A stretch of DNA of 64,000 bases from Bacillota bacterium (GTDB lineage Bacteria; Bacillota_I; Bacilli_A; Acholeplasmatales; Acholeplasmataceae), in the NCBI GenBank assembly GCA_018817915.1, contig JAHISX010000012.1, positions 1-64,000 on the forward strand, written 5' to 3'. The position numbers were made by a program, and so were the translations under genes. Positions 22,888 through 43,955 of the stretch are shown piece by piece. Position 1 is the stretch's first letter; each line of letters begins with the position of its first letter. The notes under the pieces were generated by a model. It was not told the origin of the DNA. It worked only from the letters and a program-made list of their open reading frames with translations, and did no database searches.

Positions 22888-22894
22888 AATATTG

Positions 22895-22910: not shown

Positions 22911-22942
22911 ATCCAAAAATACAAAGAAAGTAGGTCTTCACC

Positions 22943-23635: not shown

Positions 23636-23637
23636 AT

Positions 23638-23681: not shown

Positions 23682-23703
23682 GATTGCGGTGAAGACAGAT
23701 CAA

Positions 23704-23745
23704 GGACATAACTCCCCTTTTGGGGGATTATGTTCTTTTTCTTTT
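23704..23745 (+). terminator. Strong hairpin terminator or attenuator before the recombinase genes
   Basis: GGACATAACTCCCC and GGGGGATTATGTTC form a stem of about 13 pairs around a TTTT loop, followed by a T-rich tail at 23736-23745. It is only about 20 bases past the expected start of transcription and ahead of the recombinase genes. It may make a very short RNA, attenuate the recombinases or end the Xre transcript. Confidence 0.75.
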
Positions 23746-23842
23746 ATATATACAAAGAATAGTCATTGGGTTAGCCAATAACACTTGATAAATCCCCCTA
23801 AATAGGTAATATACATACTAACCACCAAAGGAGGGTTTTTAC

Positions 23843-27164: not shown

Positions 27165-27166
27165 TC

Positions 27167-28000
27167 TCAATTGTATACATCAAATATCCTTATAAAATCT
27201 TCTCTAAACTTTTGTTCAAAATCCTCGTGTTGGTACCAATTATTTTGAAGAAGACTCAAATCTGATGGAGTAAATTTTCTTTTAGTTTCAAACTCAAAAT
27301 GTTTCTTCAAGCAACAATCCTTATACAATTTATTTGATCCACAAATACATATGCTATTAGGATTATTAAGTGAAAACCTTTTTGAATTTGCTAATTCATC
27401 TGATGCTGGGCCAATCCATGGCATACTGTATTTAATTTTATTCAATTGATTCCAAACTAAATGTTTCAATAACCATATTGAAGTTTGTTCCACAACATAG
27501 TCAATAATATTTTTTTCATTATTGAAAACTTCATAGTCATCCGTATAACATATTGATGCAGGAATTGTATTAAGCTCATATCCATTTAAGTGAGGGTGGT
27601 CAGGAAACACAGAAAAACTAATGACAGGATCTATGCCGAAAACTAAATATTGCCCACTAAACGCCTTTTGTGGATATCCCTTTACATACCTGAAATATGG
27701 ACTTCTTATAACAATTTTGAAGGAAGTATTCTCAACACTATAATGAATTTCATCCAAAACATCCTTGATTTTCTTAGGAAGTTGATGCGAGATGCTATCA
27801 CAATTTGTATAGTGTAGTACTTGACCTCTAGGGCTGATACTAACTGTCTTTTGTCTTAGTAAATCACTAATGACTTGATTTAATTCATCTTTATTTGTGA
27901 GAGGAGTAAGATTAACGATATACCAACTTCCAGAATATTTTCTAGTATACATCCCATCCACTTTTGTTACAGGGAAAAACTCGCTCATAACATTGTCCAT
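27167..28000 (-). CDS. Possible E2-like protein with C-terminal SEC-C motif
   Basis: This 277-residue protein has a clear zinc-binding SEC-C motif near the end: C218-x-C220, CC at 229-230, and nearby His234. Upstream, HPH (135-137) is followed 14 residues later by Cys151 in PASICY, with a preceding beta-rich segment (YLVFGIDPVISFSVFPD). That order, strand, HP-x then Cys, resembles ubiquitin-conjugating (E2) folds, including prokaryotic ones in antiviral loci; the match is by eye and moderate. The ATG follows AGGGTG. A 42-residue gene ends nine bases upstream, so the two form an operon. The serine recombinase gene ends 2 bases away, convergent. Confidence 0.55.
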   Translation of the reverse strand: MDNVMSEFFPVTKVDGMYTRKYSGSWYIVNLTPLTNKDELNQVISDLLRQKTVSISPRGQVLHYTNCDSISHQLPKKIKDVLDEIHYSVENTSFKIVIRSPYFRYVKGYPQKAFSGQYLVFGIDPVISFSVFPDHPHLNGYELNTIPASICYTDDYEVFNNEKNIIDYVVEQTSIWLLKHLVWNQLNKIKYSMPWIGPASDELANSKRFSLNNPNSICICGSNKLYKDCCLKKHFEFETKRKFTPSDLSLLQNNWYQHEDFEQKFREDFIRIFDVYN

Positions 28001-28009
28001 TAATTCACC

Positions 28010-28138
28010 CTAATTCGACAGCGAGTGAGGCTTCGCAGGAGTAACAGGCTTGTTTTCTCCGTGGCGCTTACCGCTATCGTTTCCCTTATCTGGTTTAGGG
28101 TCTGTTTCAGGAATGTGTTTAGACTTTTCATCATTCAT
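28010..28138 (-). CDS. 42-residue polar Lys/Pro-rich small protein
   Basis: This small gene encodes a very hydrophilic peptide rich in Lys, Pro, Asp and Ser (starting MNDEKSKHIPETDPKPDKG) that is probably disordered. AGAGGTGAT lies 7 bases before the ATG, better than many genes here, and the stop is nine bases before the E2-like gene. I recognise no family. Co-expression with the E2-like protein suggests a partner or substrate, but that is only inference. Confidence 0.55.
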   Translation of the reverse strand: MNDEKSKHIPETDPKPDKGNDSGKRHGENKPVTPAKPHSLSN

Positions 28139-28537
28139 TGAAATCACCTCTTGAATAACTAGTAAAATGCTGTGTCATAGAAAGCTTATTCAGGGTATTC
28201 ATGTAGAGCGAGTTTTTTACTGAACAATATTATTTTTTTACACAAATATTTGTCCTTGAAAACTTGGTTAGAGCATTCGCTTTTAGACACGTTACTATTA
28301 TATCACCTAAAAATGTTTTTTAATATCGCAAGTTTAATATATTAATGTTTTTTTATTTAACTATTGACAATGCATTCGTTTTTTGGTAAATTATATTTGC
28401 ATTTATTTTTTAGAAAAGTTTAGACAAGTAAAATGAAAAAAGTTCGGTTGGTTACCGATCTTTTTTATTTTTCGATTAATATAGGGATTTCTACCTGAAA
28501 TACCAATAAATATTTACAACTTACCTTAACCATTCTA
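28139..28537. other. Gene-free interval with one terminator
   Basis: Apart from the hairpin at 28436-28466 and the leader of the 42-residue gene, this AT-rich interval shows no gene. No promoter with two good boxes was found for the 42-aa/E2-like operon. Confidence 0.5.
28436..28466. terminator. Bidirectional-looking terminator after DUF1643 gene
   Basis: AAAAAAG plus TCGGT pairs with ACCGA plus CTTTTTT, with one T-T mismatch and a TGGTT loop. A and T runs on either side allow termination both ways; the DUF1643 transcript is the obvious user. Confidence 0.65.
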
Positions 28538-29191
28538 TCACTCAATATATGATATTTCGTTTCTCACACGTCTGGAGCTTGAAAACCTCTGAATTTCGAT
28601 GTCGTCATATGGTGTATATGCAGGATGAACATGTTTTGTACTGCTTTTAGATATAGTTAGATATAGATCACTACTGTTATTTACCATTAGATCTAATAAA
28701 TCATCATTCACCTTTGTGGTTCTACCCCAAAAAATAATAGTGTCAATACCATCTATTTTCATTAACAATTCTTTCAAGATCACACTTTCATATTCTAGTG
28801 TGACTGGAGTTTCATAAAATGCCTTTTTATCTTTTGAAATAAGAGGGTACAGATTAAATAGAAAATATCCTGAATAATTATCACTTAAATGATAAATTAA
28901 TTTTTTGTTTGTTAAGTCAAATTCATGAGATTCAGCTTTTGCGGGATTAAAACCTATAGCGATAGCATATTTTTTATTATCATTGTCGAATTCAATACTC
29001 TCTATAAATTTATATTCATCCTCTTTGTCATTATCGCACTCGGGGTTCTCAATTATAAAAGTCAAATACTTTCTCTCTTTTATAATTATGCTCCTGTTTT
29101 TACACTGTACCTTAAAAGACAAATCATTATTAGTTTTAGCTTCATAATGACTTCTAATTAATTCACTTAATTCATTCCACATTTTTTCCAT
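28538..29191 (-). CDS. DUF1643 domain protein
   Basis: This is a protein of 217 residues. The central segment GFNPAKA, then DLTNKKLIYHL, GYFLFNLYPL and later IIFWG follow the DUF1643 pattern (NPS-x-A, D-x-T, N-L-x-P, WG). The family occurs on phages, plasmids and in accessory islands, and its activity is not established. The start at 29191 is chosen because AGGAG lies directly upstream; the open frame extends to 29230. It is divergent from the small RNA promoter at 29272-29300. Confidence 0.75.
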   Translation of the reverse strand: MEKMWNELSELIRSHYEAKTNNDLSFKVQCKNRSIIIKERKYLTFIIENPECDNDKEDEYKFIESIEFDNDNKKYAIAIGFNPAKAESHEFDLTNKKLIYHLSDNYSGYFLFNLYPLISKDKKAFYETPVTLEYESVILKELLMKIDGIDTIIFWGRTTKVNDDLLDLMVNNSSDLYLTISKSSTKHVHPAYTPYDDIEIQRFSSSRRVRNEISYIE

Positions 29192-29271
29192 ATTAATCTC
29201 CTGAACAAAAATATATTTATTATAGTTCAAATCTGAGATACACTTTTCACTATCAATTTAAATAAGTTACT

Positions 29272-29300
29272 TTGACATTTTTCTTTATTTGTTTTATAAT
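29272..29300 (+). promoter_or_regulatory. Consensus promoter of the small RNA
   Basis: TTGACA (29272-29277) and TATAAT (29295-29300) are 17 bp apart: both boxes are exact consensus. No open reading frame follows; the next 110 bases fold into a closed structure ending in T9. Confidence 0.9.
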
Positions 29301-29306
29301 GTAAGT

Positions 29307-29417
29307 GGGTAGTAACTTGAGAAGGATAAACGATGTGTTGGCTAAGCCAGTAAGGATTAAGTTTTAGAACTTAGTCTGAGAATTCATCTCGCCTGGGGTT
29401 AACTACCCTTTTTTTTT
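29307..29417 (+). ncRNA. Structured small RNA next to the HEPN gene
   Basis: The predicted transcript is about 105-110 nt. GGGTAGT-AAC (29307-29316) pairs with GTT-A-ACTACCC (29398-29408), giving a 10-bp closing stem with one bulged A. Inside are three hairpins: TTGGC-TAA-GCCAG (29338-29350); a 10-bp stem with TTAG loop (29354-29377); and GAGA-ATTCA-TCTC (29378-29390). The closing stem runs into nine T (29409-29417), so it doubles as terminator. The 3' end overlaps the end of the convergent DUF3644 gene. It is not a tRNA: there is no T-loop or acceptor CCA context. I recognise no Rfam family. A role as antitoxin or guide for the HEPN protein, as with the ncRNA linked to AbiF, is inference. 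Confidence 0.8.
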
Positions 29418-30338
29418 ATATTTTTCCTTAAACTCCTCATCGTTACAATATTTGTAGACCACAAAATCAACAACTTCTTGAGAAAACTTCCTAACACCGC
29501 CACTATAATCAAAAATATAACAATATTTTTCATCAGTTTTTATTGGGTGGTCTTTACTAATCAAGTCAAAGGATCTGGTAGTAAATCCGTGGTCCTGCCC
29601 AAAATGTAACTCTAATGATTCTTGAATAGATTTAATTGCATCTTTATAAGTATAAGGGTATAGTTTATTAACATCCTTAGGAACTTTTACCATTCTTATA
29701 TTATTAGGACTATCTGGATCAACCCTAACACTTATGTCAGCATCGCTGGCTTTTTTTGTTACGTAAAATTGAATGTGTTGCCCAATTCCATCAATTGAAC
29801 ACATTTTAACTATTTCTTCCATAAAATATTTAGTATCATCTATTATCATCAATGGTGATGTTTCTTGTTTGGGAGACTTAGTAATTGAGATAAAAGGATT
29901 GATTGCCATATTGAAATTATAGTCGGGAAATTTATTTGAAAAAAACCTATTAAAATAGGTTAAATTTTGCTGGAACAATGGTGCAAATTCGTAATCGTAA
30001 TCAGGCAAAATTAAATGAGTTGAACGATTTCTAATAGTAACAACATGGTTTAAATTTGTTTTCACCTTATCGGTGGTACTGGTAAAAACTTTTTCAATAC
30101 AATCTGATAATCCAATTGTTCTAGCTGTTTTATCCTTATAATTAATGGAATTAATATCATCACTACTGATAATTATAAAAGCTTTTAGAAGCAACTCCCA
30201 GGCATTGCATATAAAAAAGCAAAAACCTTCAGTACGATATTTCAAAGTCGGTTTATTGACAATTTCTAAAGCCATTAAGTAACCTTCTTCAGATTTTTGA
30301 AGTAACGCATTTACATATTCATGTATTTCTTTTGGCAT
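29403..30338 (-). CDS. DUF3644 HEPN-type protein, putative RNase effector
   Basis: In this 311-residue protein the N-terminal domain is helical and has CNAWELLLKAFIII and the HEPN catalytic motif R103-NRST-H108 (Rx4H) in a VTIRNRSTHLI helix, as in many HEPN ribonucleases of toxin and antiphage systems. The C-terminal region (from about residue 180) has a beta-rich part, then FSQEVVDFVVYKYC; its role is unknown. It has its own promoter at 30394-30422 and a GGGGGAG Shine-Dalgarno. Its 3' end is overlapped by the small RNA, so expression of the two may interfere. Confidence 0.78.
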   Translation of the reverse strand: MPKEIHEYVNALLQKSEEGYLMALEIVNKPTLKYRTEGFCFFICNAWELLLKAFIIISSDDINSINYKDKTARTIGLSDCIEKVFTSTTDKVKTNLNHVVTIRNRSTHLILPDYDYEFAPLFQQNLTYFNRFFSNKFPDYNFNMAINPFISITKSPKQETSPLMIIDDTKYFMEEIVKMCSIDGIGQHIQFYVTKKASDADISVRVDPDSPNNIRMVKVPKDVNKLYPYTYKDAIKSIQESLELHFGQDHGFTTRSFDLISKDHPIKTDEKYCYIFDYSGGVRKFSQEVVDFVVYKYCNDEEFKEKYKKKG

Positions 30339-30393
30339 AAAATCTCCCCCTATTGAATTAATCGCACAAGTGAATTGTACTAACTATGCAATT

Positions 30394-30422
30394 ATTATAT
30401 CACTTAAAATTAAAGATTTAAA
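30394..30422 (-). promoter_or_regulatory. Promoter of the DUF3644 gene
   Basis: On the minus strand TTTAAA (30417-30422) and TATAAT (30394-30399) are 17 bp apart, ahead of the ATG at 30338 by about 50 bases. It separates this cassette from the peptidase-like gene. Confidence 0.55.
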
Positions 30423-30446
30423 GCCCCTATTTGATATAGCATCAGT

Positions 30447-30824
30447 TCAGATAAGAACCTGCCACGCTGTATAGACTGATAGGTATGTACAATCCCAGGT
30501 ATCATAAATTATTCCATCAATGCAAATTGTTACATGTTCTGCCATTTTTAAAATGTATGTTCCTCTTGAATGTAATTTTGTGAAATCACTCCCTTTGATT
30601 CTCGGTTCTCCCTTTATTGGCTTAAATATCAATCTCGGACAATCTTTTAAAAACTCATATAAAAATTTGGTATCTTTATAACTGGAGTATCCTAGTTCCC
30701 TTTTTCTTCTATTAAGATCTCTCCTTACTTCTAAATAATCTTTGTTTGCGGCTGTTGCGATTGCTCTTACTACACAATCATCTGTTTTAATTCCTTTCGG
30801 GTGTGCATTAAACTCTTTAAACAT
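30447..30824 (-). CDS. Small papain/C39-like cysteine peptidase-fold protein
   Basis: This is a 125-residue protein. DDCVVRAIATA (Cys near residue 17) opens a helix, EHVTICIDG gives a His near residue 97, and YDTWDC gives Asp residues at 108 and 111, the order of a Cys-His-Asp triad in papain- or C39-like folds. Similar small proteins occur in phages and accessory regions; whether they cleave anything is unknown. The ATG at 30824 has AAGGAG 9 bases upstream, whereas the one at 30833 abuts it. Confidence 0.65.
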   Translation of the reverse strand: MFKEFNAHPKGIKTDDCVVRAIATAANKDYLEVRRDLNRRKRELGYSSYKDTKFLYEFLKDCPRLIFKPIKGEPRIKGSDFTKLHSRGTYILKMAEHVTICIDGIIYDTWDCTYLSVYTAWQVLI

Positions 30825-31093
30825 CGAATTCATCTCCTTTTCTTTTGTTACTATATATCGCTCTAAACGGCCAATATAGCAAGTAGTATTTCTCCTATAG
30901 TGACGATATATAAAAGGCTAGACTTCGAATAACTATTTAATGGAGTTTTAATCAAATACATCAAAATGAGTATGAATATTTATAATTATTTTCAATAATA
31001 TAATTCACTAAAGATATCTCTGTTTAGCGGTAAAATGTACCTCATCTATAAATGAAAGTTAAGTATTGTCAATTGAAGCTTAAAAGCACAAAA

Positions 31094-31118
31094 AAAGACA
31101 GAATTTGCTTCTGTCTTT
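31094..31118 (-). terminator. Minus-strand hairpin terminator
   Basis: A perfect 10-bp stem (AAAGACAGAA with TTCTGTCTTT) with a TTTGC loop and, on the minus strand, a following T7. The loop and inner stem AGAATTTGCTTCT recur at 44164-44188. No minus-strand gene ends just before it. Confidence 0.65.
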
Positions 31119-31613
31119 CGAGTATATAGAGTATAGTTTGTTTCGATTTCATATCAGTTCATACTAACCACATAATGGTTCACAGTCACTCCACATGCCT
31201 TAGCGTGAGAAGTATAAAAAGAGCAAAAATTCAAGCACTTTTTACCTTTTGTGCTCTTAGTTTAGCCGTTAACTGCATATTATGAGCAAAATAAATTTTT
31301 AGACTTTTTATGTCTAAATACACTATTCCATAGCAATTAAAAATAGTCAACTCTGTAAACACTCCTAAATACGATTGTGCTTTAAGCACAAAATGAATCA
31401 TCTAGATCCAACAATGTTTCGAAGAATCGGTAATCAAGGGCAAACAAATAATATATTAAAAAGCGGATAAAAATATCTTGCATTTTACTAAAACACTCTT
31501 TATATAGCAAATCAAATGTGACGAGCACCATTGTATTAATTCCATGAACCTTTAGTGAAACATCATTCAGTGAATCATGTTTCACTATGAATTTATAAAT
31601 GATGAATACATGG

Positions 31614-31647
31614 AAAACATTGATTGTGTTGATATAATCAATGTTTT
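31614..31647 (-). terminator. Terminator of the AbiE operon
   Basis: AAAACATTGATT pairs perfectly with AATCAATGTTTT (12 bp) around a 10-base loop, two bases after the abiEii stop codon. Confidence 0.75.
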
Positions 31648-31648
31648 T

Positions 31649-32458
31649 CTATTTTATCCCATTAAAAAATAATGTTAATTCTTCTAAAATTGTATTAATA
31701 TCGCATCCAGTCCAATTATCGCTTCTTGAAAAATTTCCAATAAATATATCTGACTTTAGGAGTTCAGTCATAGAATTAATATAATGGTCCAGAGACTGCG
31801 CTTGGCCAGGATTAACAAAATACTGGTGAATTATTTCCATCACTTTTTGTTTTGAGTATGTTTGATTCTTAATTAGATAATAAATATCAAACAAGTCTTT
31901 CATTCTTGTAGATAATACACCAAACTTTATAAACGAACTTGTCTTTTCAACAATCATCTGTTCAATTGGATTCGCAAGCAATTCAATTCCTTTATCTGAG
32001 CAAGTGATGTCAAAAATTAATTTATCTTGCTCAATATGATATTGAGTATGTATACCGATATCCAATTTTAAAGAAAGAGTATCCTTAAGATCATCTGTAA
32101 ACAACAAAATTAATCTTTTGCCTTCATATGCTTCATGTTTTAATGATGTAATCTTATCTACAATGACTTCAAACTTAATTTCTAAACCAACATCAATTGC
32201 GCCCATACGATTAAATACTGTAATTAAATTTTGATCCGATACACTGATTTTCATCAAATCAACATCTAAATCCTCGGTACTTCTCCTTTGTTCTTTTGTC
32301 AATTGATACATGATAGTACCACCTTTTAGTAAAACAGAATCTCTATACTTTGAACAAGATAGTTTTATCATGAATATTTCTTGACAAGCTTTTACTTTAG
32401 CTCGATTCAATTTGAAACCATCTTCTCGTATAGAATCAACCATGTCTTTCAAATTCAT
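31649..32458 (-). CDS. abiEii: AbiEii nucleotidyltransferase toxin
   Basis: This 269-residue DNA polymerase beta-like nucleotidyltransferase has LLKGGT (residues 44-48) followed by RSTEDLDVDL with the metal-binding D63 and D65, and the C-terminal MKDLFDIYYLIK motif typical of AbiEii. In this family it acts as the toxin of a type IV toxin-antitoxin and abortive infection system. The AbiEi gene precedes it by 12 bases, and a perfect terminator follows. All visible motifs are intact, so it is probably functional. Confidence 0.9.
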   Translation of the reverse strand: MNLKDMVDSIREDGFKLNRAKVKACQEIFMIKLSCSKYRDSVLLKGGTIMYQLTKEQRRSTEDLDVDLMKISVSDQNLITVFNRMGAIDVGLEIKFEVIVDKITSLKHEAYEGKRLILLFTDDLKDTLSLKLDIGIHTQYHIEQDKLIFDITCSDKGIELLANPIEQMIVEKTSSFIKFGVLSTRMKDLFDIYYLIKNQTYSKQKVMEIIHQYFVNPGQAQSLDHYINSMTELLKSDIFIGNFSRSDNWTGCDINTILEELTLFFNGIK

Positions 32459-32470
32459 TTATAGGGCTCC

Positions 32471-33013
32471 TTACATTATAGAATTTTGGATAACACTGAC
32501 TATTTTTTTATAAGATTTAAACTGCTTGGCATAAGTCATTAATTTATTGAAATTTAAGTTGTCTTTATTGTTTCGAAACTTTCGTAGAACATGATGATAT
32601 TCTTCAAAAGGTATTTTGGTTTCATAACGGATTAATTCGATTAGAGTTCGTTCTAAATTATAGATTTTAATTGTATTTCCACCTTGCTTATATTCTTCTA
32701 TTCCAATTGAGTGATATTTGCCAGACATAAAAATTTGTTTGATATCATTATCCTTTATTGGATATGCATTCCTTGGTGTAGCAATATAAGTATAATCTGG
32801 AACATAATCTGTAACCCTATGATAATGAAAAGCAGATTGCAGGGTTAAAACAGCATCCTGTCTCTTGATGAAAACCTCTGGAATATCCATACTCAATTCA
32901 TTATTAGAATACAACCCTGGTTTCACTTTTAAAATCTCATTTCTAAGAATTGCTTTCTTTAATTGATAATCATTTTTATAGCGTTTAATCACTTCATCAT
33001 AAGTATAGAACAT
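32471..33013 (-). CDS. abiEi: AbiEi antitoxin and autorepressor
   Basis: This is a 180-residue protein. An N-terminal winged-helix (IKRYKNDYQLKKAILRNEILKVKPGLYS) is followed by the AbiEi second domain containing TYIATPRNAYPI and YNLERTLIELIRY. AbiEi neutralises AbiEii without stable complex formation in the studied case and represses its own promoter through inverted repeats. The ATG at 33013 with GAGGTGATAAA just upstream is chosen: the more upstream ATG at 33052 lies inside the promoter. Confidence 0.88.
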   Translation of the reverse strand: MFYTYDEVIKRYKNDYQLKKAILRNEILKVKPGLYSNNELSMDIPEVFIKRQDAVLTLQSAFHYHRVTDYVPDYTYIATPRNAYPIKDNDIKQIFMSGKYHSIGIEEYKQGGNTIKIYNLERTLIELIRYETKIPFEEYHHVLRKFRNNKDNLNFNKLMTYAKQFKSYKKIVSVIQNSIM

Positions 33014-33030
33014 TTTATCACCTCGCCTAT

Positions 33031-33079
33031 ATTTTATAGTAAACCTATGCATTTGTCAATATATTGCATAGATTTACTA
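33031..33079 (-). promoter_or_regulatory. AbiE promoter with 15-bp inverted-repeat operator
   Basis: On the minus strand TTGACA (33054-33059) and TAAAAT (33031-33036) are 17 bp apart. The -35 box lies in the spacer of an inverted repeat: TAGTAAACCTATGCA (33037-33051) and TGCATAGATTTACTA (33065-33079), 14 of 15 positions matching. AbiEi proteins bind inverted repeats at their own promoters, so this is a likely AbiEi operator. Confidence 0.8.
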
Positions 33080-33097
33080 AAATGTTTGATGATAAAT

Positions 33098-33134
33098 AAG
33101 ACTCCATAAAAATAATACCTGTCAATGGAGTCTT
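33098..33134 (-). terminator. Hairpin between the two toxin-type operons
   Basis: AAGACTCCAT pairs with ATGGAGTCTT (10 bp) around a 17-base loop. It ends at 33134, eight bases from the pRiA4b-type gene's stop, so it should terminate that transcript ahead of the AbiE promoter. Confidence 0.6.
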
Positions 33135-33142
33135 TTACTTGT

Positions 33143-33886
33143 TTATTTTCTTCTCTCAATATAATCAACTTCTTGATCTGTAGGTGGTATCTTGTCTTCA
33201 TAGCTGAGTTTATAGATTTTCGGAATAACTTGTAACCTTTGATTCATTTCCTCAATCTCAAATAAAGAAAAATCAAAATCATCGATACCTAACCAGTCTC
33301 TATATTCTTGATATGCTTTTGATTTCTTACTCTTAAATGCTTTGATGATATCATTTAATCTCCAGATGCCACCACAGTCTTCAATAATGCCAAATCCTTC
33401 TCCATCGATTACACTCGGTAATATATTTGAATCATCTGCATCAAATATATCCTTGAGTTTAATATCAATAAACCAATCATCCCCGAAATCATACCATAAT
33501 TCCATATATTCACCAATCATTGAAATAGCATGTTTTAATTTCTCTTTACACACATTATGAATAATGTCATTTCCTTTATTAGAGATAAACTGTGAGTCAA
33601 TCATATCCAGCAATTCATATTTATATTTAATTGTATGTATTTCTGGATGTTCTTTCTTAAATGATTGCTCATCAAATTCAGTACCAAGTTTCTTACGATA
33701 CTCTTCAACCAACATTGCACCTTTAGGCACAATAACTTTAAATAAGTGGCTTGCCTGCATTTCAAATAAGACCAATGCGATATAAGCAAATTCTGCGACT
33801 GACATTTTTTGATTCACTTGAAGTGTTCGCCATATTTTTGGTTTGGAATCACGAAGTACTAAATATAGCTCATATACTTTTTCCAT
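33143..33886 (-). CDS. Plasmid pRiA4b ORF-3 family protein
   Basis: This is a 247-residue protein: the opening YELYLVLRDSKPKIWRTLQVN and the later YDFGDDWFIDIKL are the signature segments of the pRiA4b ORF-3 (IS1096 TnpR-like) family. Function is unknown; the fold is thought to be beta-rich, and family members are frequent on plasmids and next to transposons. The start overlaps the upstream AbiEi-like gene by 17 bases, so the two are translationally coupled. Confidence 0.8.
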   Translation of the reverse strand: MEKVYELYLVLRDSKPKIWRTLQVNQKMSVAEFAYIALVLFEMQASHLFKVIVPKGAMLVEEYRKKLGTEFDEQSFKKEHPEIHTIKYKYELLDMIDSQFISNKGNDIIHNVCKEKLKHAISMIGEYMELWYDFGDDWFIDIKLKDIFDADDSNILPSVIDGEGFGIIEDCGGIWRLNDIIKAFKSKKSKAYQEYRDWLGIDDFDFSLFEIEEMNQRLQVIPKIYKLSYEDKIPPTDQEVDYIERRK

Positions 33887-34499
33887 AACGAATTACCTCT
33901 TCCACATGTTTACGAATATAAGACAAGCGATTTCCTTTATAATAACTACTATACTTCTCTAATAAATCTTTATCTAATTTCAAATCAAGAAATAAACTAG
34001 ATAGTTTCTCAACTCTTTCATTAAATTGATAATCGCTTAAATCAATATATTTAATGATTTCTATGAATTCCAAATATTGTATATTATCCTTGTTGATTTC
34101 AAATTTGGGCGATGAAACAATTACTTTCCCTTTATATTCCTTTTTCGATCTAGTATTTGAAGATACGTTATTACTCAATATTTCATAATATTCTGAAACT
34201 TGAGAAGTAAATTTATATTTATATAGCAAATATGCTCCTGAACGTATTCCATTGTAATTTTTAAGATATTTCTTATAAACAATATCATGAATAGAAGGTT
34301 TTAAATCTTCAAACTTTTTATTAGAGCTTTGAATATAATAAATTCCATTCTCGAATCTCTTTAAAACACCAAAAAGAACCATATTTGATAAGGCTTGGTT
34401 AAATGAGTTTTCATTATCAATTCGAATAACTTTCTTTATTTCCTCTTTCAAGATTGGCTCACGTTCTTGAAACGAGTTAAGAAGTGCATTTACATACAT
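33870..34499 (-). CDS. AbiEi-like (DUF6088-type) regulator
   Basis: This 209-residue protein has a winged-helix-like start (residues 10-60: KEEIKKVIR, then NQALSNMVLFGVLKRFENGIYYI) and a second domain with SGAYLLYKYKFTSQVS, homologous to the protein at 1913-2632. This is the architecture of AbiEi/DUF6088 antitoxin-type regulators. It is coupled to a pRiA4b-ORF-3 gene rather than to a nucleotidyltransferase, and has its own promoter with a palindrome. The ATG at 34499 follows GAAGGTG; the frame extends to 34523. Confidence 0.65.
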   Translation of the reverse strand: MYVNALLNSFQEREPILKEEIKKVIRIDNENSFNQALSNMVLFGVLKRFENGIYYIQSSNKKFEDLKPSIHDIVYKKYLKNYNGIRSGAYLLYKYKFTSQVSEYYEILSNNVSSNTRSKKEYKGKVIVSSPKFEINKDNIQYLEFIEIIKYIDLSDYQFNERVEKLSSLFLDLKLDKDLLEKYSSYYKGNRLSYIRKHVEEVIRYGKSI

Positions 34500-34539
34500 A
34501 TTAACACCTTCTTTTATATGCAATATATTTTATATAATA

Positions 34540-35569: not shown

Positions 35570-35772
35570 TTTTTTCTCTCCTTTCTGACAATAATGTTAA
35601 TAACAAAGAATTTTAATGGGGAATTAAGAAGCCAATTTGGATCTTATTAACACATAAAAATTATGGTATAAAATTGTAATGCAGTTTTCTTGTTAACTAA
35701 AAAAGATGTATTGCATTTGACTAAAATGCATGATAAAATCAGTCTATACTATTTTGAAGGAGGAAATTGAAT

Positions 35773-36561
35773 ATGAAATCACTAAAGTTGGAAGATTTAA
35801 GACTTCTTTTTAATTGCTACTCTCCTCTAAAAACAAACATGCAGCTGATCAATCATTATAATCAGATTAGTCAATCAAGTTTTGATCTAAATAAAAATAT
35901 CCGTGATAAATATAACAATGAAATTCTCAAAGATTTTCTAAATGAATCCGTTATTAAGGCTGCATTTGTTGAAAAATTCAGTTTTAAGAAAACAAAATCA
36001 AGCACTGTCACAGTATTTGAACTTAATACAGGTTCTAGTCGAGCAGATATCTGCATGCTAAATGGTAAAAGTATGGTTTTTGAAATTAAAACAGAATATG
36101 ATACTTTTTATAGACTAGAAGGTCAAATTGCTGACTATAAGAGGGCTTATCAGTACCTAAACCTAATTATTCCTGAGAGCAAGTTTGATGAAGCTAAAAG
36201 AATTACTGATGAAACAATTGGTATCATCACATATACAAAAGTTAAAGGGAAAATTACTTTCAATATTGATAGAGAACCACTTCCTAATCAATCATATGAT
36301 TCTTTGTTCCAACTGGAGCAACTTACTAAAAAACAACTAACAAGTATTCTTTGTACTCCTGAACTATCAAAAGACAAAATGATTCAAAAAATTATTGAAT
36401 CGCACACTAAGGACCAAATTAACAGATTTTTCATTGATTTAATGAAGGAAAAGTATCAGGAACGTTGGTTATATCTCTATGAAAATAGAAATCTAATCAA
36501 ACCATTAGATTATCAATGGTTCTTTAAGAACAATATCTCAGTTGAAGCAGTCTATAGTTAA
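35773..36561 (+). CDS. sce7726-family protein, PD-(D/E)XK nuclease-like
   Basis: This is a protein of 262 residues. The core has SRADICML (Asp), then MVFEIKTEYDT, giving the D...ExK of a PD-(D/E)XK nuclease fold, in the order seen in sce7726 proteins; the rest is helical. It lies convergent with an sce7725-type gene, its usual neighbour. The ATG at 35773 has GAAGGAGG at the right spacing, while the open frame starts at a TTG six bases earlier. The stop codon abuts the neighbour's stop, with a terminator across both. Confidence 0.78.
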   Translation: MKSLKLEDLRLLFNCYSPLKTNMQLINHYNQISQSSFDLNKNIRDKYNNEILKDFLNESVIKAAFVEKFSFKKTKSSTVTVFELNTGSSRADICMLNGKSMVFEIKTEYDTFYRLEGQIADYKRAYQYLNLIIPESKFDEAKRITDETIGIITYTKVKGKITFNIDREPLPNQSYDSLFQLEQLTKKQLTSILCTPELSKDKMIQKIIESHTKDQINRFFIDLMKEKYQERWLYLYENRNLIKPLDYQWFFKNNISVEAVYS

Positions 36562-36576
36562 TTATAGGCTGCTTTT
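36546..36576 (+). terminator. Terminator spanning two abutting stop codons
   Basis: AGCAGTCTATA and TATAGGCTGCT form an 11-bp stem (one G-U pair) with loop GTTAAT, followed by TTTT on the plus strand. It lies inside the last codons of both convergent genes, sce7726 and sce7725. Confidence 0.7.
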
Positions 36577-37590
36577 CACTTGTGAGACATATCTTAACAC
36601 TGTAATGTACTTCCATTGTCCCCATTGACCAGGTTTACCTTGGCTATATAAATTTAAATACATATGCTCAAAGGCTGGACAGTTATTATTAGGGTCAAGG
36701 TTTGTTTTGTAAACATTAAATGCTTGGTGAAGAACATAAAGATGACCTCTTGTACCTTGATCAGTATCGGGATTCATAATCGAAAAGAATTGATTATTAG
36801 AACTGTCATAAAATAACCCCAATGCTGCACCTTTGCCATTACTACCATTAGTTGGTAACACATTTTTGAGTCCAGCATAGTCTGCAAAACCATCAAAGCC
36901 AAGCTTTTTATAGTCAACCTTAATGCTGTTATCAATTAAACCTGTATAATCTCCATCTAGATAACTTCCATTATTTAGTTTGCTAGAACGTGGTGAATGA
37001 AGCAAAACCATCTTATATGAACTACTTCTTCTGGATAATTGTTTTCTATCAAAAAATTTTGATTGAATCGAGTCTTCATTGATATCATAGATAAGTAAAT
37101 CATCTTCTCTGAGCAAAGGATCTATTTCCATAAAGAAGTTTTGCAGTAATGATGATTGAACTCGTACTGCTATTTTTGAGGTCAGAGCTTGTAACATTTG
37201 GATAAGTGATTTAATTGTTGCCTTGTTTAGTAGGAATTCTCTTCCTTTTTTTATTGAAATTACAGGGATTCCATGCTCAGTAGCACATACTAACGACAGT
37301 AAATCAAAATAGTCATTAATAGTATCATTTCTATGGGCAATATAAAAAGGAACCTGATTAAGATCATGCTTTGAATATTCTCCCTCTTCAAATGTGAAAA
37401 AATCCACAAAATAAGAAGAATTGATGTAGCTGTCATAAATAGAAAGTAATTCATCGATTTGCATTGGAGTTCGTCCAATTTTCTGATTCAATATTTCGAT
37501 GAGTGGTATAACTTTCTCGTCGAAATAGCTACTTTGCTCTCTTAAAAATTTATTTTCGAATAATCTATTCTTTAATACTGGTATGTACAT
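36562..37590 (-). CDS. sce7725-family (Beta protein) gene
   Basis: This 342-residue protein is of the 'beta family' known from phage T4 and bacterial islands, including sce7725. It begins MYIPVLKNRLFE, carries PLIEILNQKIGR, FVDFF, and later LLHSPRSSKLNNG, GFDGFADYAGLKNVLPTNG, and ends with a GQWGQWKYI segment. Biochemical activity is unknown. It follows HigA-ImmA by 12 bases in one operon. AGGAGG lies 8 bases before the ATG at 37590. Confidence 0.75.
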   Translation of the reverse strand: MYIPVLKNRLFENKFLREQSSYFDEKVIPLIEILNQKIGRTPMQIDELLSIYDSYINSSYFVDFFTFEEGEYSKHDLNQVPFYIAHRNDTINDYFDLLSLVCATEHGIPVISIKKGREFLLNKATIKSLIQMLQALTSKIAVRVQSSLLQNFFMEIDPLLREDDLLIYDINEDSIQSKFFDRKQLSRRSSSYKMVLLHSPRSSKLNNGSYLDGDYTGLIDNSIKVDYKKLGFDGFADYAGLKNVLPTNGSNGKGAALGLFYDSSNNQFFSIMNPDTDQGTRGHLYVLHQAFNVYKTNLDPNNNCPAFEHMYLNLYSQGKPGQWGQWKYITVLRYVSQVKSSL

Positions 37591-37602
37591 GTCTGTCACC
37601 TC

Positions 37603-38643
37603 CTATATCTTTCCTTTTAAATAGTTGAACTCACCATGTTTTATGACTTTATCGTGTTCTAAGAATCCTATAAGAACATCTGGTATGATTTTGTGCTTTT
37701 TTGATAATACAACAATGTTTTCTGCTGTGATAACACTATGTTGTTTAATGAAGTCTCGATACTCAGTATTGTCGATGAAAAAATCTCTTGCATATCTATT
37801 TACTAGTTTTTCCTCATCATCTTCAATAAGTATTTCATATATGTCTTTTGAAGCAGTTCTTTTTATGATATGCCCTATCTCATGGATGAATGCGAAATAC
37901 AGTGTATCTAACCTTTTATAGCGGTCTGAGACATAGATAACCGGTCTGTCATTGATAATTCTCACTGCACCTCTTATCTTTGCATTAGGTATAGACTCAT
38001 GAAATACAAAAATCATACCCAATTCATTTGAAAATCTTCTTAAATTATCAATAGCTAGATTGAAATCTTGAGTATACATTAAATCTCTAAATACTTCTAA
38101 GTTTCTTTCTAGTTCTTCAATCAAGAATGGAGGTATGTTATCAACATCATTTTGAATCTCTATTTCTGATTCACAGAGCTTCAACCATAATAGCATAGCT
38201 TTTTCATCTCCACCATCCTCCATAAAACTGAATGATAACTCTTTAAGCATATTATCTACTTCATCGAATGATTCAACACCTAGAATATCAAGCATTTTTA
38301 TTGCTTGTTCCTTAAGTGACATCTTCATTCCCTTAAATATGTGCTTAAATTGAAAATCCTCTGCTATGGTTCTTAATCTTAATATTTCTTTATCGTCATT
38401 TCTTAATAGATGTAATCGATAAGCTGTCTCTAGGTCCATCCAAAATTCAGCTTTAATGTCTTCGAAGACTTGCTCTAACTTGATTGCGAATTCTTCAGTT
38501 AACTTGATCTTTCCGTTGATCAAGTTGGATATGTGACGCTCACTGCTCTCAGTAATTTTCGCCAAATCCTTTTGAGTAATATTACGAGCATCCATATATT
38601 CTTTTAATATTGTTCCTGGTGAAACAACAAAATTAAAACCCAT
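37603..38643 (-). CDS. HigA-type HTH fused to ImmA/IrrE metallopeptidase
   Basis: This 346-residue protein has an N-terminal HTH (PGTILKEYMDARNITQKDLAKITESSERHISNLINGK, residues 9-45) of HigA/XRE type. The C-terminal half contains the zinc protease signature HEIGH at residues 254-258, within DTLYFAFIHEIGHIIKR, as in ImmA/IrrE proteases that cut repressors or antitoxins on phage or stress cues. It lies directly after a HigB-like toxin gene and before sce7725. It may act as antitoxin, regulator and sensor in one. Confidence 0.85.
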   Translation of the reverse strand: MGFNFVVSPGTILKEYMDARNITQKDLAKITESSERHISNLINGKIKLTEEFAIKLEQVFEDIKAEFWMDLETAYRLHLLRNDDKEILRLRTIAEDFQFKHIFKGMKMSLKEQAIKMLDILGVESFDEVDNMLKELSFSFMEDGGDEKAMLLWLKLCESEIEIQNDVDNIPPFLIEELERNLEVFRDLMYTQDFNLAIDNLRRFSNELGMIFVFHESIPNAKIRGAVRIINDRPVIYVSDRYKRLDTLYFAFIHEIGHIIKRTASKDIYEILIEDDEEKLVNRYARDFFIDNTEYRDFIKQHSVITAENIVVLSKKHKIIPDVLIGFLEHDKVIKHGEFNYLKGKI

Positions 38644-38657
38644 TATAATACCCTCCT

Positions 38658-38969
38658 TTAATGCGTGTCCGTTATTTCTTCTATTATTATTTTATTTATT
38701 TGATTTTCGTTTATAATATCCTTGTCGGATACTGTAAATAACAATCTATAATTCTTTGATACATCCACTGACCAATATCCCTCATAATTTCCACTGAGTT
38801 TATGTTTTCTCGGAGGTGGATTATGAGAAATCAACGATAAGTTTCTAACTGCTTGTAGTTCAGTCATTCTATTTTTGAGTCCAGAATAAATGCTTGAAAA
38901 GTGTTTCTTCATTAATCTATCATCTGATAGTATCTTCTCGAGTTTTTTTGATCGAAAATCAATTTCCAT
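38658..38969 (-). CDS. HigB/RelE-superfamily toxin
   Basis: This is a 103-residue protein. The core RKHKLSGNYEGYWSVDVSKNYRLLF matches HigB/YoeB-like ribosome-dependent mRNA interferases: Lys and Arg before the final strand, and a YRLLF strand. The short C-terminal extension is acidic. The HigA-ImmA gene follows by 14 bases. A consensus promoter lies directly upstream. Confidence 0.85.
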   Translation of the reverse strand: MEIDFRSKKLEKILSDDRLMKKHFSSIYSGLKNRMTELQAVRNLSLISHNPPPRKHKLSGNYEGYWSVDVSKNYRLLFTVSDKDIINENQINKIIIEEITDTH

Positions 38970-38993
38970 AGTGCACCTCCTTCATATACCTAA

Positions 38994-39022
38994 ATTATAT
39001 ATGCGATTACACTTCATGTCAA
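38994..39022 (-). promoter_or_regulatory. Promoter of the HigB/HigA-ImmA/sce7725 operon
   Basis: Exact TTGACA (39017-39022) and exact TATAAT (38994-38999), 17 bp apart, on the minus strand; the HigB ATG at 38969 is about 20 bases after the expected start point. GGAGG is well placed. Confidence 0.85.
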
Positions 39023-39139
39023 GTATAAAATATAAAAAACGGTTGAATATCTGTTTTTTTCTGTAATCAATCCCCAATTTTAACCTTATTCTTATTTCTG
39101 AAGTGCATTTTTATACTTCTACACAAACGAAATCAATAT

Positions 39140-39553
39140 CTAATTAAACCACTTAATCATTTCTTTTATAGAGTATGACTCGAATACTGGAGTTAAGAAA
39201 TTATTGGATTGTTCAAATACAGTATAACTATTTCTATTGTATGCATTACTTATTTGAACAACGAACAGTGTTGCATCTGTTTCGATATCAGCAAATCTAA
39301 AATCATCATAGAGCGCATCATCAAGAGGACAGTTGTTCCTAAACCATATATAACTCTTCTCAAGATTAATTTTGCCACCTGGTTTGATCTGTTCAATAAT
39401 GTTACCCATTCTTTTCGTCTTATTTGCTAAATTGCTATCCCTACAAAACCAATCATACCATCCAGCTTCAATCTGGGTTTGTACATCCCTAGATTCGTAT
39501 TTGCCGTCACAGAATCGTTCAACCCATTCTCTTATGCTTATCTCGTTTCTCAT
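39140..39553 (-). CDS. Hypothetical protein, 137 residues
   Basis: This soluble protein contains WVERFCDGKYESRDVQTQIEAGWYDWFC and a C-terminal FESYSIKEMIKWF. I recognise no domain, though such short tryptophan-rich proteins occur on phages and plasmids of Firmicutes. It has a modest Shine-Dalgarno site and lies between the Hig cassette and the 1265-residue gene. Confidence 0.55.
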   Translation of the reverse strand: MRNEISIREWVERFCDGKYESRDVQTQIEAGWYDWFCRDSNLANKTKRMGNIIEQIKPGGKINLEKSYIWFRNNCPLDDALYDDFRFADIETDATLFVVQISNAYNRNSYTVFEQSNNFLTPVFESYSIKEMIKWFN

Positions 39554-40157
39554 GCTTAAATCACCTTCCTTTGTATATATCTTAGGTATGTATATATATC
39601 ATTCAAAAGACGATAATTATCAAGTTAAATCCTTCATTCTCGTGAACTCATTCGTTTATCGGAAATAACTTGTAATGAGTATGTAGTGAGTTAACATAAC
39701 TTTTATGAAATCTTGTTTTTTTGAAAACCTCATATATGCTTCATGGTGCTGTGAATTCAATAATCTATTATGTAAAATAAAGCACTAAACAGACAAAACA
39801 GTTCTAAATAATAAAAAAAGATAGGATTTCGTCCTATCTGTGTCAATTGTTCATTTTCATGTGTAATAGATGTCAACTCACTGTATTCACATGCCAAATC
39901 ATCGACAGTTCTAATTTAGAGGTGGCGGTGTCTACTTTTATATTACCAGTTCTTAATAACCAAGTGTTCAAAAACCATACTAATCTTATTGGAATATTTT
40001 TGTTTTTTGATCACTATGTTAAATTATTCATCATCTTAAATATTCTGATATTTATAGACCATGTATTCCTATGTAAATTGGCCTGAAAATTCGTTCAAAC
40101 TTATCTATATATCGATGATTTCATGATTTATTTTACTGGTTTTAGTCTATTTATCCT
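39554..40157. other. Gene-free interval
   Basis: Only the terminator hairpin at 39819-39839 was found here. The plus-strand open frame at 39847-40086 lacks a ribosome-binding site. Confidence 0.5.
39819..39839 (-). terminator. Terminator after the 1265-residue gene
   Basis: AGATAGGA and TCCTATCT form an 8-bp stem with loop TTTCG; on the minus strand a T-run follows. It lies about 320 bases past the stop of the large gene. Confidence 0.65.
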
Positions 40158-43100
40158 TTAGTAACCAATCAAATGGTCTTTCTTGATTCGTTCTGATTCA
40201 CTTTTGTGATCATTAGCAATCATTCTAAATATCCTAGCTGTCTCTGGATAGTGTAGTTCAATCTCTTTTGCCTTTTCTTCAAACTGTTTAGATATCTCCC
40301 GTTCGTTTGTTCCATCATCGACAAATCTTGCTTCAAATGTATTTGTATAGCCTATTAAATATCCTTTTCTTAATTCTTCGTTTTTTGTATGTTCAATTAT
40401 TTTTCTTAGACTAATCGGTATAAAAATATCACCATTTTTCCTTGATGTTCGAGCGAATATCTCTCCCAATGTTTGCATTGCAATAATATTGTCCATTCTA
40501 TTCTGTTGAGGACAGTTTATAAATGCATCTGCAAAATGAACCAACTTTTCATTGTCACTATAATAGTCATCTGGAAGATAATATTGCATTTTGACTGTGT
40601 ACCACAACTCATATTTCACATCCATAAGATTTAATAAGTCCAAAGGGTTATCAAAAAAATACTTTCTTATTGCTTTTAATAATTTTCGATGATGATTCAT
40701 ATTAAGAAATTTAAATGCTACAACAACTACTTTCTCATTATATAAATTATCATCAATTTTAGAAATTATTTTTTCCAGTGAGTGAAATGAATCTCTATGT
40801 TTTAGCAATTCATCTTCGGTCATATTTATTAAGATATCTAATATTTCATCAACGTTCCATTCGTTAAATTTGAGTTGATAATTGATGTAATGCAAATAAG
40901 CAATTGGGTTGTATTTCTTTATTTGATATTTTTCATTTGCATCACTTTTTGTTGTTAAATGTCTGTTTTCCCAATATACTTTTAGTAGATTTTCATCAGT
41001 AAGAACAGTTGTATCAAAATTTGCAATACCATTAAGACTGAATTTTTCTACTAGATCAGTCTTTTTTTTGTTTTCTAAAGAGTTAATGAAATCTGTCGAA
41101 TCACATCTATTATGTGTATAAGATATCAAGCATGACAACAGATTCATTTTGTTATTTATAGCTAAGTAACTAGACCACAATTGAATCTCATTTTCACCCA
41201 AAATATTAGCCAACATTAACCCAGATGAGCAATCATCCATGAGATGAGGGGCGAGCATTTCAATGATATTTTCACTTGTGTATTTTTCATTGAATTTAGC
41301 GTAGGTTTGCTTTAAAAACTCTAATTTATCTATCTGCTTTTTTTCTGATAAATAATGATAATCATCATCAAACTGACTAAATGTTTTGAAATAAATCAGG
41401 TTTGAAAAAAATAGATCTGTTGGTTTCATTTGCTTCACTAAACTAGAAAGGAAGTTAATAATATTTGCATACTCATCTTTTTCTTTAAATCTATTAATCT
41501 GGTTAATCTTGCGATACAGATATTCATAAATTTGAAATTTTACATCCTCTGAAGTCAAAACATTTATACAATAATTCTCAATTGATTGATTGATTTTTGA
41601 GTTTAAGAAGTGAAAATTGTCAATAATCTCTTTAATTATACCAATATCTGCTATTCCTAGATTATCAACAACAGTTATAAGTACCTCATTAATAAATATA
41701 AAAATCTCGTGATTGGTTAACTCTTGGTCACTCGTTTGAGGTATACGCCATTTCAAATATCCATCACTTATTAATATCGAATTCGAAAAAATAACTTTTG
41801 TTATAAGCTTATAAACAAAACTATCATTTTTTATACATTGAGCAATTAAAAAATCCTGTTTTTCATTAATTGATAGAGCATTGTTAGTATTTAAAACACT
41901 TAAAATATTGACTAAAGTATCTTCAGGTGATTTTGATAAATCGTGTTTTACATCTATTAAATATATCTCCAATAATATATTTATTGCCTGTATTTTAAAT
42001 CGATCCAGTAGTGTTAATGCTGTTAGACTATGAAGTATATACACATAATCGTTTACTCCAAAATAACTATTAATGCCGTTATCTTTCTTATACAAACTCA
42101 ACAGTATATCTTCATTGTTTTTTATAAATGAAGAGATAAAGTCTAAATAAACTTGAGGTGAACATTCAGCTAATTGCAAGTAATATTTGCATACAAACTT
42201 AATATTTCTTTGGTCTTTGGACAATTCGAGTATTTTCTTAACTGCACCATTAATTGTGTAATTAGAAGTTTCTGAATTTATCGCATTAATGGTTAAAAAG
42301 CTAATCAAACCGCTATATGAATAATCCGAAAACACTTCGTTACTTTTAAAAAAAGAGTATTTGCTCTCTTTCGTAACATTTAAATCTTCAGTAAACATTT
42401 TTATCAAACACTCACATACTATTTCAATTAATCTAGAGTCGATAAAATTATGAAGTTCATTCCACAATTCTATGCTTGAGTTAACTTTAATACTACTACC
42501 AATAAACATTAATGGTGATTCATCTATGGCTTTCCAGTTAGCTATCTTTTTTAAATATTCATTAGAATCAATACTTGTGATAAATTTTATTAATTCCATA
42601 TCTTTTAGATTATATGTTTCTATTCTTCCTAAAATAAGCATTGGAATTAAATCTACTAGATTATTGGTTTTTCTCCAACTAGGCTCAGCAAGAAATTGTT
42701 CACTAGCAAGAGCTCTAATTATGCACATGGTATTATTACCGCATTTGCTTGAAATCGAACTAATTCGACCACTATCCAAACCCAGATCATCACTCAAACA
42801 TTTACTAATAATTGAAAATGGTCTTTCTGCTAGCTTAATATCATAAGTGCGATTATCACTACTGCTATTTCCATAAAGAAATATATATCTATTTTTTGGT
42901 GATAAATCAATTTGTTCAACATCGAAATTTACTATAAGTACATTGTTGTCTACTAATTTTGATAAAAATTTAAAACTTACAATTTCATTAACTACTATTA
43001 TTGCATTATTAGGATTACTTCTAATAATCAACGATGATATGACAAACCCTAAAGCTTCATCTCTAGATGATGCACGAATATCAATTCGTTTTTTTGTGTC

Positions 43101-43955
43101 AGCTTCTATATATTTTAAAATCAGTTCTTTTTCATCATCCCGTCCTGCAAGAAATAATGATTCTTTAGTCTTTGGGGTAGTTCTATCGCTAATGGTATTC
43201 CACATTGAATCTACTGTTTTTAGATCAATTTTCATATTTTCCATTTGTTCAAGAGCATAGACACTAGTCTCTAAACATTGACTTAACCACTTTTCCAAAT
43301 CTAGTGCATCATACACAATAACTCTTTTCCACGAAGTATTAATTCTTTTTTCAAAGTTACTTTTCTGCTCTTTATATGCCCAAATTTTTGATGATATTAG
43401 AATGAATGTTGTGTCTTTCTTTTGTTCATAAGAATAAGTGTCATCTCTTTTTTTAAAATCCTCAGTAATTTTCTTGAGGGTACGACTTGTTGTACCTATC
43501 TCAATAATTACATCACCACTCGGAACAAAAGGTGTCTCAATTTGGTTGTTAACATTTGTGAATTTTCCATCAACACCAGGTATCCATACGTTGTCTCCTG
43601 TGGGTATCCTTAATCCTGCTATTTTACCATCAGTGGATTCAATTAACAGTTTTTCAATCAATTCTGGGATGAATGATTCAAACTTTCTTTTATCTTTTAA
43701 ACACCACTCCTCAATCATTCGTGCAGTAATCAATGTCAATCCAAACATAATTGATTTACCTTTATTCTTATCAACAAAAAAACCTTTACTCTTATAAAAA
43801 TCTAGAATTTCAGTTTGTCTCTTTTGGGATGGTTTATTGTGACCTTGTTCCCATCTATTTATTGTTGCAAATGAAACATTTAAGTCACTGGCCATTTCTT
43901 GTTGAGTTAGTTTATAATTTTCTCTAATGCTCGTAATAATTTCTGAGAAACTCAT
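40158..43955 (-). CDS. Large Xre-HTH, nuclease-like and STAND-like defence-type protein
   Basis: This is a 1265-residue protein. It opens with a Cro/CI HTH (ITSIRENYKLTQQEMASDLNVSFATINRWEQGH). About residues 70-230 hold a region with WIPGVDGKF, FVPSGDVIIEIGTTSRTL and ILISSKIWAYKEQ, which aligns by eye with the Mrr-like N-terminal block of large defence proteins. A following segment (SLFLAGRDDEKELILKY, then RIDIRASSRDEALGF) sits where a STAND P-loop would be, but has no GK(S/T), so nucleotide binding is doubtful. The remaining 800 residues are helical repeats. An antiphage role is inferred. Its promoter carries three tandem 9-bp repeats. Confidence 0.7.
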   Translation of the reverse strand: MSFSEIITSIRENYKLTQQEMASDLNVSFATINRWEQGHNKPSQKRQTEILDFYKSKGFFVDKNKGKSIMFGLTLITARMIEEWCLKDKRKFESFIPELIEKLLIESTDGKIAGLRIPTGDNVWIPGVDGKFTNVNNQIETPFVPSGDVIIEIGTTSRTLKKITEDFKKRDDTYSYEQKKDTTFILISSKIWAYKEQKSNFEKRINTSWKRVIVYDALDLEKWLSQCLETSVYALEQMENMKIDLKTVDSMWNTISDRTTPKTKESLFLAGRDDEKELILKYIEADTKKRIDIRASSRDEALGFVISSLIIRSNPNNAIIVVNEIVSFKFLSKLVDNNVLIVNFDVEQIDLSPKNRYIFLYGNSSSDNRTYDIKLAERPFSIISKCLSDDLGLDSGRISSISSKCGNNTMCIIRALASEQFLAEPSWRKTNNLVDLIPMLILGRIETYNLKDMELIKFITSIDSNEYLKKIANWKAIDESPLMFIGSSIKVNSSIELWNELHNFIDSRLIEIVCECLIKMFTEDLNVTKESKYSFFKSNEVFSDYSYSGLISFLTINAINSETSNYTINGAVKKILELSKDQRNIKFVCKYYLQLAECSPQVYLDFISSFIKNNEDILLSLYKKDNGINSYFGVNDYVYILHSLTALTLLDRFKIQAINILLEIYLIDVKHDLSKSPEDTLVNILSVLNTNNALSINEKQDFLIAQCIKNDSFVYKLITKVIFSNSILISDGYLKWRIPQTSDQELTNHEIFIFINEVLITVVDNLGIADIGIIKEIIDNFHFLNSKINQSIENYCINVLTSEDVKFQIYEYLYRKINQINRFKEKDEYANIINFLSSLVKQMKPTDLFFSNLIYFKTFSQFDDDYHYLSEKKQIDKLEFLKQTYAKFNEKYTSENIIEMLAPHLMDDCSSGLMLANILGENEIQLWSSYLAINNKMNLLSCLISYTHNRCDSTDFINSLENKKKTDLVEKFSLNGIANFDTTVLTDENLLKVYWENRHLTTKSDANEKYQIKKYNPIAYLHYINYQLKFNEWNVDEILDILINMTEDELLKHRDSFHSLEKIISKIDDNLYNEKVVVVAFKFLNMNHHRKLLKAIRKYFFDNPLDLLNLMDVKYELWYTVKMQYYLPDDYYSDNEKLVHFADAFINCPQQNRMDNIIAMQTLGEIFARTSRKNGDIFIPISLRKIIEHTKNEELRKGYLIGYTNTFEARFVDDGTNEREISKQFEEKAKEIELHYPETARIFRMIANDHKSESERIKKDHLIGY

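Follow-up and report, generated by a model that had tools for sequence, protein, structure and literature searches.

A four-gene bacterial locus joining a PD-λ-2-like operon to the β/cII gene pair of phage P4

The window analysed here, a 64,000-nucleotide stretch of contig JAHISX010000012.1 from a member of the Acholeplasmataceae (genome of about 2.1 Mb in 89 contigs), contains four genes at 35773–38969 that encode a HigB toxin, a HigA helix-turn-helix (HTH) protein fused to an ImmA/IrrE-type zinc protease (HigA-ImmA), a Beta/sce7725-family protein and a Cll/sce7726-family nuclease. Judged from its genes, the locus is a PD-λ-2 operon joined to the β/cII pair of phage P4, both published anti-phage systems. 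The first three genes are packed tightly on the minus strand and the fourth converges on them from the plus strand, with all four lying at the positions and in the orientations given in a preliminary description of this DNA. The locus is interpreted as an abortive-infection toxin–antitoxin module in which Beta and Cll would sense or license the response and the protease would free HigB, a reading to which a probability of roughly 55% is assigned.

Two defence systems of Escherichia coli with separate catalogue entries have a gene family in common, and many bacteria carry them joined in one four-gene module. New elements of the present analysis are the modelling of Beta as a TIM barrel, the intact nuclease site of Cll, and the occurrence of Beta–Cll beside alternative toxins or beside no recognized partner.

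Linkage of the four genes

In an even draw of 392 genomes from the phylum of the source genome, Beta of this type was found in 5, cll clearly in 8 and full-length HigA-ImmA in 23, and all five Beta genomes carry adjacent Cll and HigA-ImmA genes (Fisher P = 4e-7 and 7e-10). A wider survey, which used cll as its anchor in 85,000 species genomes and was supplemented with other loci, yielded 32 loci combining Cll, Beta and HigA-ImmA, with HigB also found in 31, so that the four genes occur together far beyond the window. Their hosts are Mycoplasmatota, Bacillota, Coriobacteriia, a spirochaete and a metagenome-assembled genome (MAG) of Bacteroidales.

Five gene orders are represented in these loci: 14 loci have the order of the window and in another 14 HigBA is divergent from cll; in 2 it is Beta from which HigBA diverges, L089 carries the whole set on a single strand, and L028 has a further arrangement. 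Where higB and cll are divergent they lie −10 to 126 bp apart, such that HigA could regulate both genes there; a comparison of higB and cll promoters found no shared operator beyond A+T-rich strings, and no clear palindrome was found as a HigA operator. Pairwise divergences of the four proteins are correlated (Mantel rho 0.71–0.86), and all four are 84–89% identical between the Bacteroidales MAG, in which contamination is possible, and a Lachnospiraceae genome. Another genome of the genus contains the same 4.2-kb block in different surroundings (L029). HigA-ImmA accompanies 28 of 61 convergent Cll–Beta loci versus none of 43 co-directional ones. The HigBA type clusters in a single well-supported group of the Cll tree (98/91), within which several gene orders occur; the long-branched L028 is placed outside this group, and L119, on a short contig, is placed within it. 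Co-occurrence beyond chance, persistence through changes of order, joint divergence and movement as a block support the proposal that the four genes are one unit, as the preliminary description had held.

In two otherwise intact cassettes, transposase-like genes lie between cll and beta (L099, 7903–9704; L107, 4747–6063). The Beta–Cll pair of L108 adjoins a TnsE-like gene (5741–7387), which suggests that it is cargo of a Tn7-like element.

The operon is preceded by a sigma-70-type promoter that matches the consensus at 12/12 positions with 17-bp spacing, as previously described, and a recognizable box like it precedes higB both in L029 and in L025, the latter with a HigB that is 61% identical to that of the window. 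The gap between beta and higA-immA is 3 nucleotides. The stop codons of Beta and Cll abut (gap 0, versus 27 in P4) and together form exactly the loop of a hairpin with a 13-bp stem (RNA fold z = −2.8); in P4, a terminator is annotated at the equivalent position. Of the terminator earlier proposed to span both stops, the hairpin itself is confirmed, but its 3′ U-tract comprises just four U, on account of which the automatic terminator scan makes no call. By consensus, it is probably a weak terminator.

Table 1 Features of the four-gene locus and its transferred block
Feature	Position	Strand	Basis or remark
HigB toxin, 103 aa	38658..38969	-	PF05015 (HigB-like/RelE fold)
HigA HTH fused to ImmA/IrrE-type zinc protease, 346 aa	37603..38643	-	HTH residues 7–81; HEIGH 254–258
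Beta/sce7725-family protein, predicted TIM barrel	36562..37599	-	profile match to P4 beta; fold model
Cll/sce7726-family PD-(D/E)XK nuclease, 262 aa	35773..36561	+	NF033832; convergent with Beta
Promoter of higB-higA/immA-beta operon, TTGACA-17-TATAAT	38994..39022	-	12/12 consensus match
Hairpin between convergent genes, 13-bp stem, 6-nt loop	36545..36576		fold z; P4 parallel
Transferred unit (block with 93.5% identity in locus L029)	35730..39930		other genome of the genus, different flanks

Predicted folds and catalytic sites

The cll gene starts with ATG at 35773, behind AGGAGG, and stops at 36561. Its product matches NF033832 (sce7726) at 1.2e-37, and also the PADLOC ‘cll’ model and P4 cII (BLAST 1e-13). 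The AlphaFold model (predicted local distance difference test (pLDDT) 95.7) resembles 3dnx, a protein of the MmcB family (Z 11.2, 3.4 Å over 139 residues), and PaqCI (Z 8.8). Residues E58, D92, E104-x-K106 and Q118xxxY122 are invariant in 42/42 relatives; by fold model and sequence, Cll is classed as a PD-(D/E)XK nuclease with an intact PD-(D/E)XK-QxxxY site, in agreement with its earlier designation as nuclease-like. A single-sequence Cll query returned nothing in viral contigs, unlike an alignment query, which gave matches there.

HigB matches PF05015 at 9e-10 and resembles Proteus vulgaris HigB (4px8, E = 0.0011). Its conserved residues are His56, Lys57, Arg75, Asp101 and His103, with His56 and His103 kept in 31/31 relatives. 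HigA-ImmA is a 346-residue fusion, unlike the small (~100 residues), single-domain HigA of classical two-gene HigBA systems. Its HTH part is recognized by TIGR02607 (4e-14), the M78 domain scores 17.2 against a cut-off of 22 bits, and the PADLOC model PD-Lambda-2_B covers residues 14–332 (2e-20); RmrA models of RosmerTA match weakly (1.6e-6). The HExxH residues (H254, E255 and H258) are invariant in 31/31 relatives, and the HEIGH motif is intact, as had been observed before. In the Leptospira plasmid locus L011 and the Pantoea plasmid locus L012, HigA-ImmA is followed by one or more convergent uncharacterized genes and thymidylate synthase, so that the same antitoxin-protease has other partners there.

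For Beta, a GTG start is listed, but ATG at 37590 fits the GGAGG upstream better and is likely to be the start, giving a protein of 342 residues. As a single sequence, Beta falls below family cut-offs (Beta_protein PF14350, 24.4 versus 27 bits; NF033831, 17.9 versus 60 bits). BLAST against P4 Beta is not significant (E = 0.05), tblastn found no phage or plasmid match, and a PDB sequence search, profile included, found no significant match. Because such single-sequence searches fail, the relationships of Beta are reached by profile–profile comparison and fold alone. When 39 relatives are combined in a profile, it aligns end to end with P4 beta (hhalign 3e-42), bearing out the earlier assignment to the Beta family, and also aligns with Beta of the PD-λ-2-type locus L195 (hhalign 3e-8), to which the window protein is ~16% identical.

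The AlphaFold model of Beta (pLDDT 94.2) predicts a (βα)8 TIM-barrel fold, with ribulose-phosphate epimerase as its best structural match (Z 13.7). No specific enzyme family is assigned, as many TIM barrels score alike (Z 12.5–13.7); the coverage by TGT (3s1g, Z 13.2 over 262 residues) and DpdA (7ui4, Z 12.7 over 274) is a lead only. Near the strand ends of the model lie P32, D66, P112 and D240, which are near-invariant in the 39-sequence alignment, and D240 is retained in 107/108 Betas of all classes. In the large all-class alignment, some positions become indistinct among distant members (D66 is not recovered), and for this reason Y5, E15, P32 and D240 alone are called near-universal. Near-invariance of strand-end residues across toxin classes suggests that the modelled pocket binds a ligand or is catalytic; such a function is predicted here for a protein that earlier descriptions call an antitoxin or relate to one.

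Known systems and alternative toxin partners

The preliminary description had presented the cassette as a unit of unknown mechanism, but as a unit it is not unknown: the operon has the architecture of PD-λ-2 (PMC9519451), and the Beta/sce7726 pair is that of P4 gop-β-cII (PMC9122126). PD-λ-2 consists of a HigB-like toxin, a HigA–peptidase fusion and a relative of a P4 antitoxin, and acts by abortive infection (Vassallo et al. 2022, PMC9519451). The window shares with it a HigB-type toxin, a HigA-ImmA-type peptidase and a Beta-family third gene, in the same order and in one operon. It differs in its HigB family (PF05015 versus PF09907 in L195), in the length of HigA-ImmA (346 versus about 400 residues) and in its convergent cll, a gene that none of three E. 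coli loci examined possesses. Close relatives of PD-λ-2 in the same class as G425, the Shewanella genome containing L161, are divided: L195 and L196 lack cll, and in L197 and L203 Beta faces it. In E. coli C (L248), a SIR2-family gene (6807–8324) is convergent with the PD-λ-2-type Beta, at the place where cll sits elsewhere.

The system of the P4 satellite, named gop_beta_cll in DefenseFinder and PADLOC, blocks λ and P1, and Gop is toxic without β (Rousset et al. 2022, PMC9122126). Its order is gop, β and then convergent cII. In both P4 and the window, Beta faces a convergent cII/cll gene, a hairpin lies between the stops and both genes are homologous, whereas the toxin is a short membrane/coiled-coil Gop in P4 and HigB with HigA-ImmA in the window; no match to P4 Gop was found in the neighbourhood of the cassette. 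RosmerTA (PMC10440598) likewise uses an HTH–ImmA protease as antitoxin (RmrA) with varied toxins, but has a different toxin, and its description names no Beta or Cll. In PprI/IrrE–DdrO (PMC10904395), an M78-type protease acts on an HTH repressor, but the two are separate proteins and the system regulates the response to DNA damage, not a toxin.

Partners were typed over 104 distinct loci with Cll and Beta (61 convergent, 43 co-directional). HigBA-ImmA is present in 28, a Gop-like gene in 8 and an FRG-domain gene in 6. Co-directional sce7726–sce7725 pairs, common in Bacteroidota and others, are followed in about 33 of the 43 loci by a RES-domain gene, mostly within a few bases; these three-gene operons (L124, L126, L133, L137 and others) combine homologous Cll and Beta with a toxin-like gene, and differ from the window in their co-directional order and in having RES, of the ART superfamily, in place of HigBA. 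Among the typed loci, RES had no match in any HigBA or convergent locus and never occurs together with HigBA, Gop or FRG. In L110, L113 and L120–L123, Beta faces Cll and an FRG-domain (PF08867) gene lies directly upstream of Beta. In single cases the toxin position is taken by a HEPN-like protein (L115, a weak match) or a DUF6932 protein (L203), and about 29 of the 104 loci, some in viral contigs, have no recognized partner. A prophage in L056 carries one such Beta–Cll pair without a recognized toxin. RES and FRG are both members of the ART superfamily, to which NADases also belong (PMC9503650).

Since partners differ between loci, Beta–Cll, and not HigBA, is the constant part of the larger family. 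The chances are about even that Beta–Cll is the portable sensor or licensing core of one large defence superfamily with interchangeable toxins (HigBA-ImmA, RES, FRG, Gop, possibly HEPN and DUF6932). In that case PD-λ-2 and gop-β-cII would be separate branches of the superfamily, the locus described here would be its complete form, and Beta would be a barrel that binds a ligand or catalyses a reaction, not simply an antitoxin. This raises the question of whether one sensor/nuclease pair controls toxins that target NAD (RES and FRG), cut mRNA (HigB) or act at the membrane (Gop). Within the limits of the literature search, neither partner exchange around Beta–Cll nor the sce7726–sce7725–RES operon was found described, and no paper was found, in incomplete coverage, that links sce7725/sce7726 with HigBA, RES or FRG.

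Proposed mechanism, rival readings and genomic setting

What these loci show directly is their gene content and linkage, the folds predicted for Beta and Cll, catalytic motifs that are intact, and toxin exchange; phage defence, the need for Beta and sensing of single-stranded DNA (by PprI) are drawn by analogy from relatives, from which an anti-phage role of the cassette is probable. In the resting state, the HTH part of HigA would bind HigB and repress the strong higB promoter, keeping HigB silent. The ImmA-type protease on HigA would serve as the switch: activated by infection, it may cleave the HTH part of HigA itself, either within one chain or between subunits. Cleavage would free HigB and derepress the operon, and HigB, presumably a RelE-fold ribosome-dependent mRNA nuclease, would then stop translation and phage growth. 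Beta and Cll would form the sensing or licensing pair. Beta may be needed to trigger and not to neutralize, because the third gene of PD-λ-2 (PD-λ-2C) is required for defence against λvir and not for neutralization (PMC9519451). Cll would attack invading DNA, and the single strands or DNA ends it makes are a possible signal to the protease, given that its relative PprI/IrrE is activated by single-stranded DNA in Deinococcus (PMC10904395); a sensor role for the ImmA-type protease is, by this analogy, plausible.

Several observations weigh against this mechanism. HigB-HigA/ImmA occurs without Beta–Cll in 18 of the 23 genomes of the even draw, and the wider survey, being ranked by likeness to the window Cll, is biased towards the window type. 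In PD-λ-2, the HigA–peptidase is toxic and HigB rescues, the reverse of the roles proposed here (PMC9519451), such that the HigA-ImmA fusion itself may be the toxin. The E. coli PD-λ-2-type loci without Cll indicate that Cll is not needed for every member.

The main rival, clearly less probable than the mechanism above, assigns defence or surveillance to Beta–Cll itself, with Beta controlling the cleavage of phage DNA by Cll, and casts HigB-HigA/ImmA as a guard or an addiction module, killing the cell once Beta–Cll is inhibited or lost. Such guarding would accommodate the intact nuclease site of Cll, the occurrence of HigB-HigA/ImmA alone, and the presence of Beta–Cll beside other toxins (RES in 33 loci, gop in 8 and FRG in 6) or beside no recognized partner (about 29/104). 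However, PD-λ-2 defence works without Cll and P4 Beta neutralizes a toxin, which together favour direct control of the toxin by Beta over guarding of the nuclease. That neutralization, of Gop by Beta in P4 (Ghisotti 1990, as cited in PMC9122126), and the description of PD-λ-2C as ‘related to a P4 phage antitoxin’ by Vassallo et al. (PMC9519451) would also suit an arrangement, considered improbable, in which Beta is a second antitoxin or chaperone for the HigB/HigA–peptidase complex and Cll is a co-travelling nuclease that plays no part in triggering; against it stand the dispensability of PD-λ-2C for neutralization, combined with its requirement for defence (PMC9519451), and the near-invariance of the TIM-barrel strand-end residues across toxin classes. 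An island with an integrase and two serine recombinases and the frequent role of HigBA as a stabilization module might imply that the locus is a common HigBA addiction module on a mobile island, which Beta and Cll adjoin by chance. This reading is very improbable given the co-occurrence at P = 4e-7 in the 392 genomes, a linkage that survives five gene orders, and the presence of HigA-ImmA at 28 of 61 convergent versus 0 of 43 co-directional Cll–Beta loci.

The cassette sits in a mobile defence island, of which 21109–34523 contains a tyrosine integrase, two large serine recombinases and DUF1643, together with PDC-S19 (DUF3644 and an endonuclease-like domain), AbiEii and AbiEi with a further AbiEi-like gene. 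With its AbiE and PDC-S19 genes, the island holds several defence-like loci besides the cassette, a setting that fits a defence role indirectly. Just upstream of higB, an open reading frame of 137 residues (39140–39553) that belongs to no known family travels with the cassette in L029 and was not seen beside higB in the more distant L025. Adjoining the cassette, 40158–43955 encodes a 1265-residue protein that has an XRE HTH at its N terminus and, after it, a long C-terminal region in which no domain is recognized.

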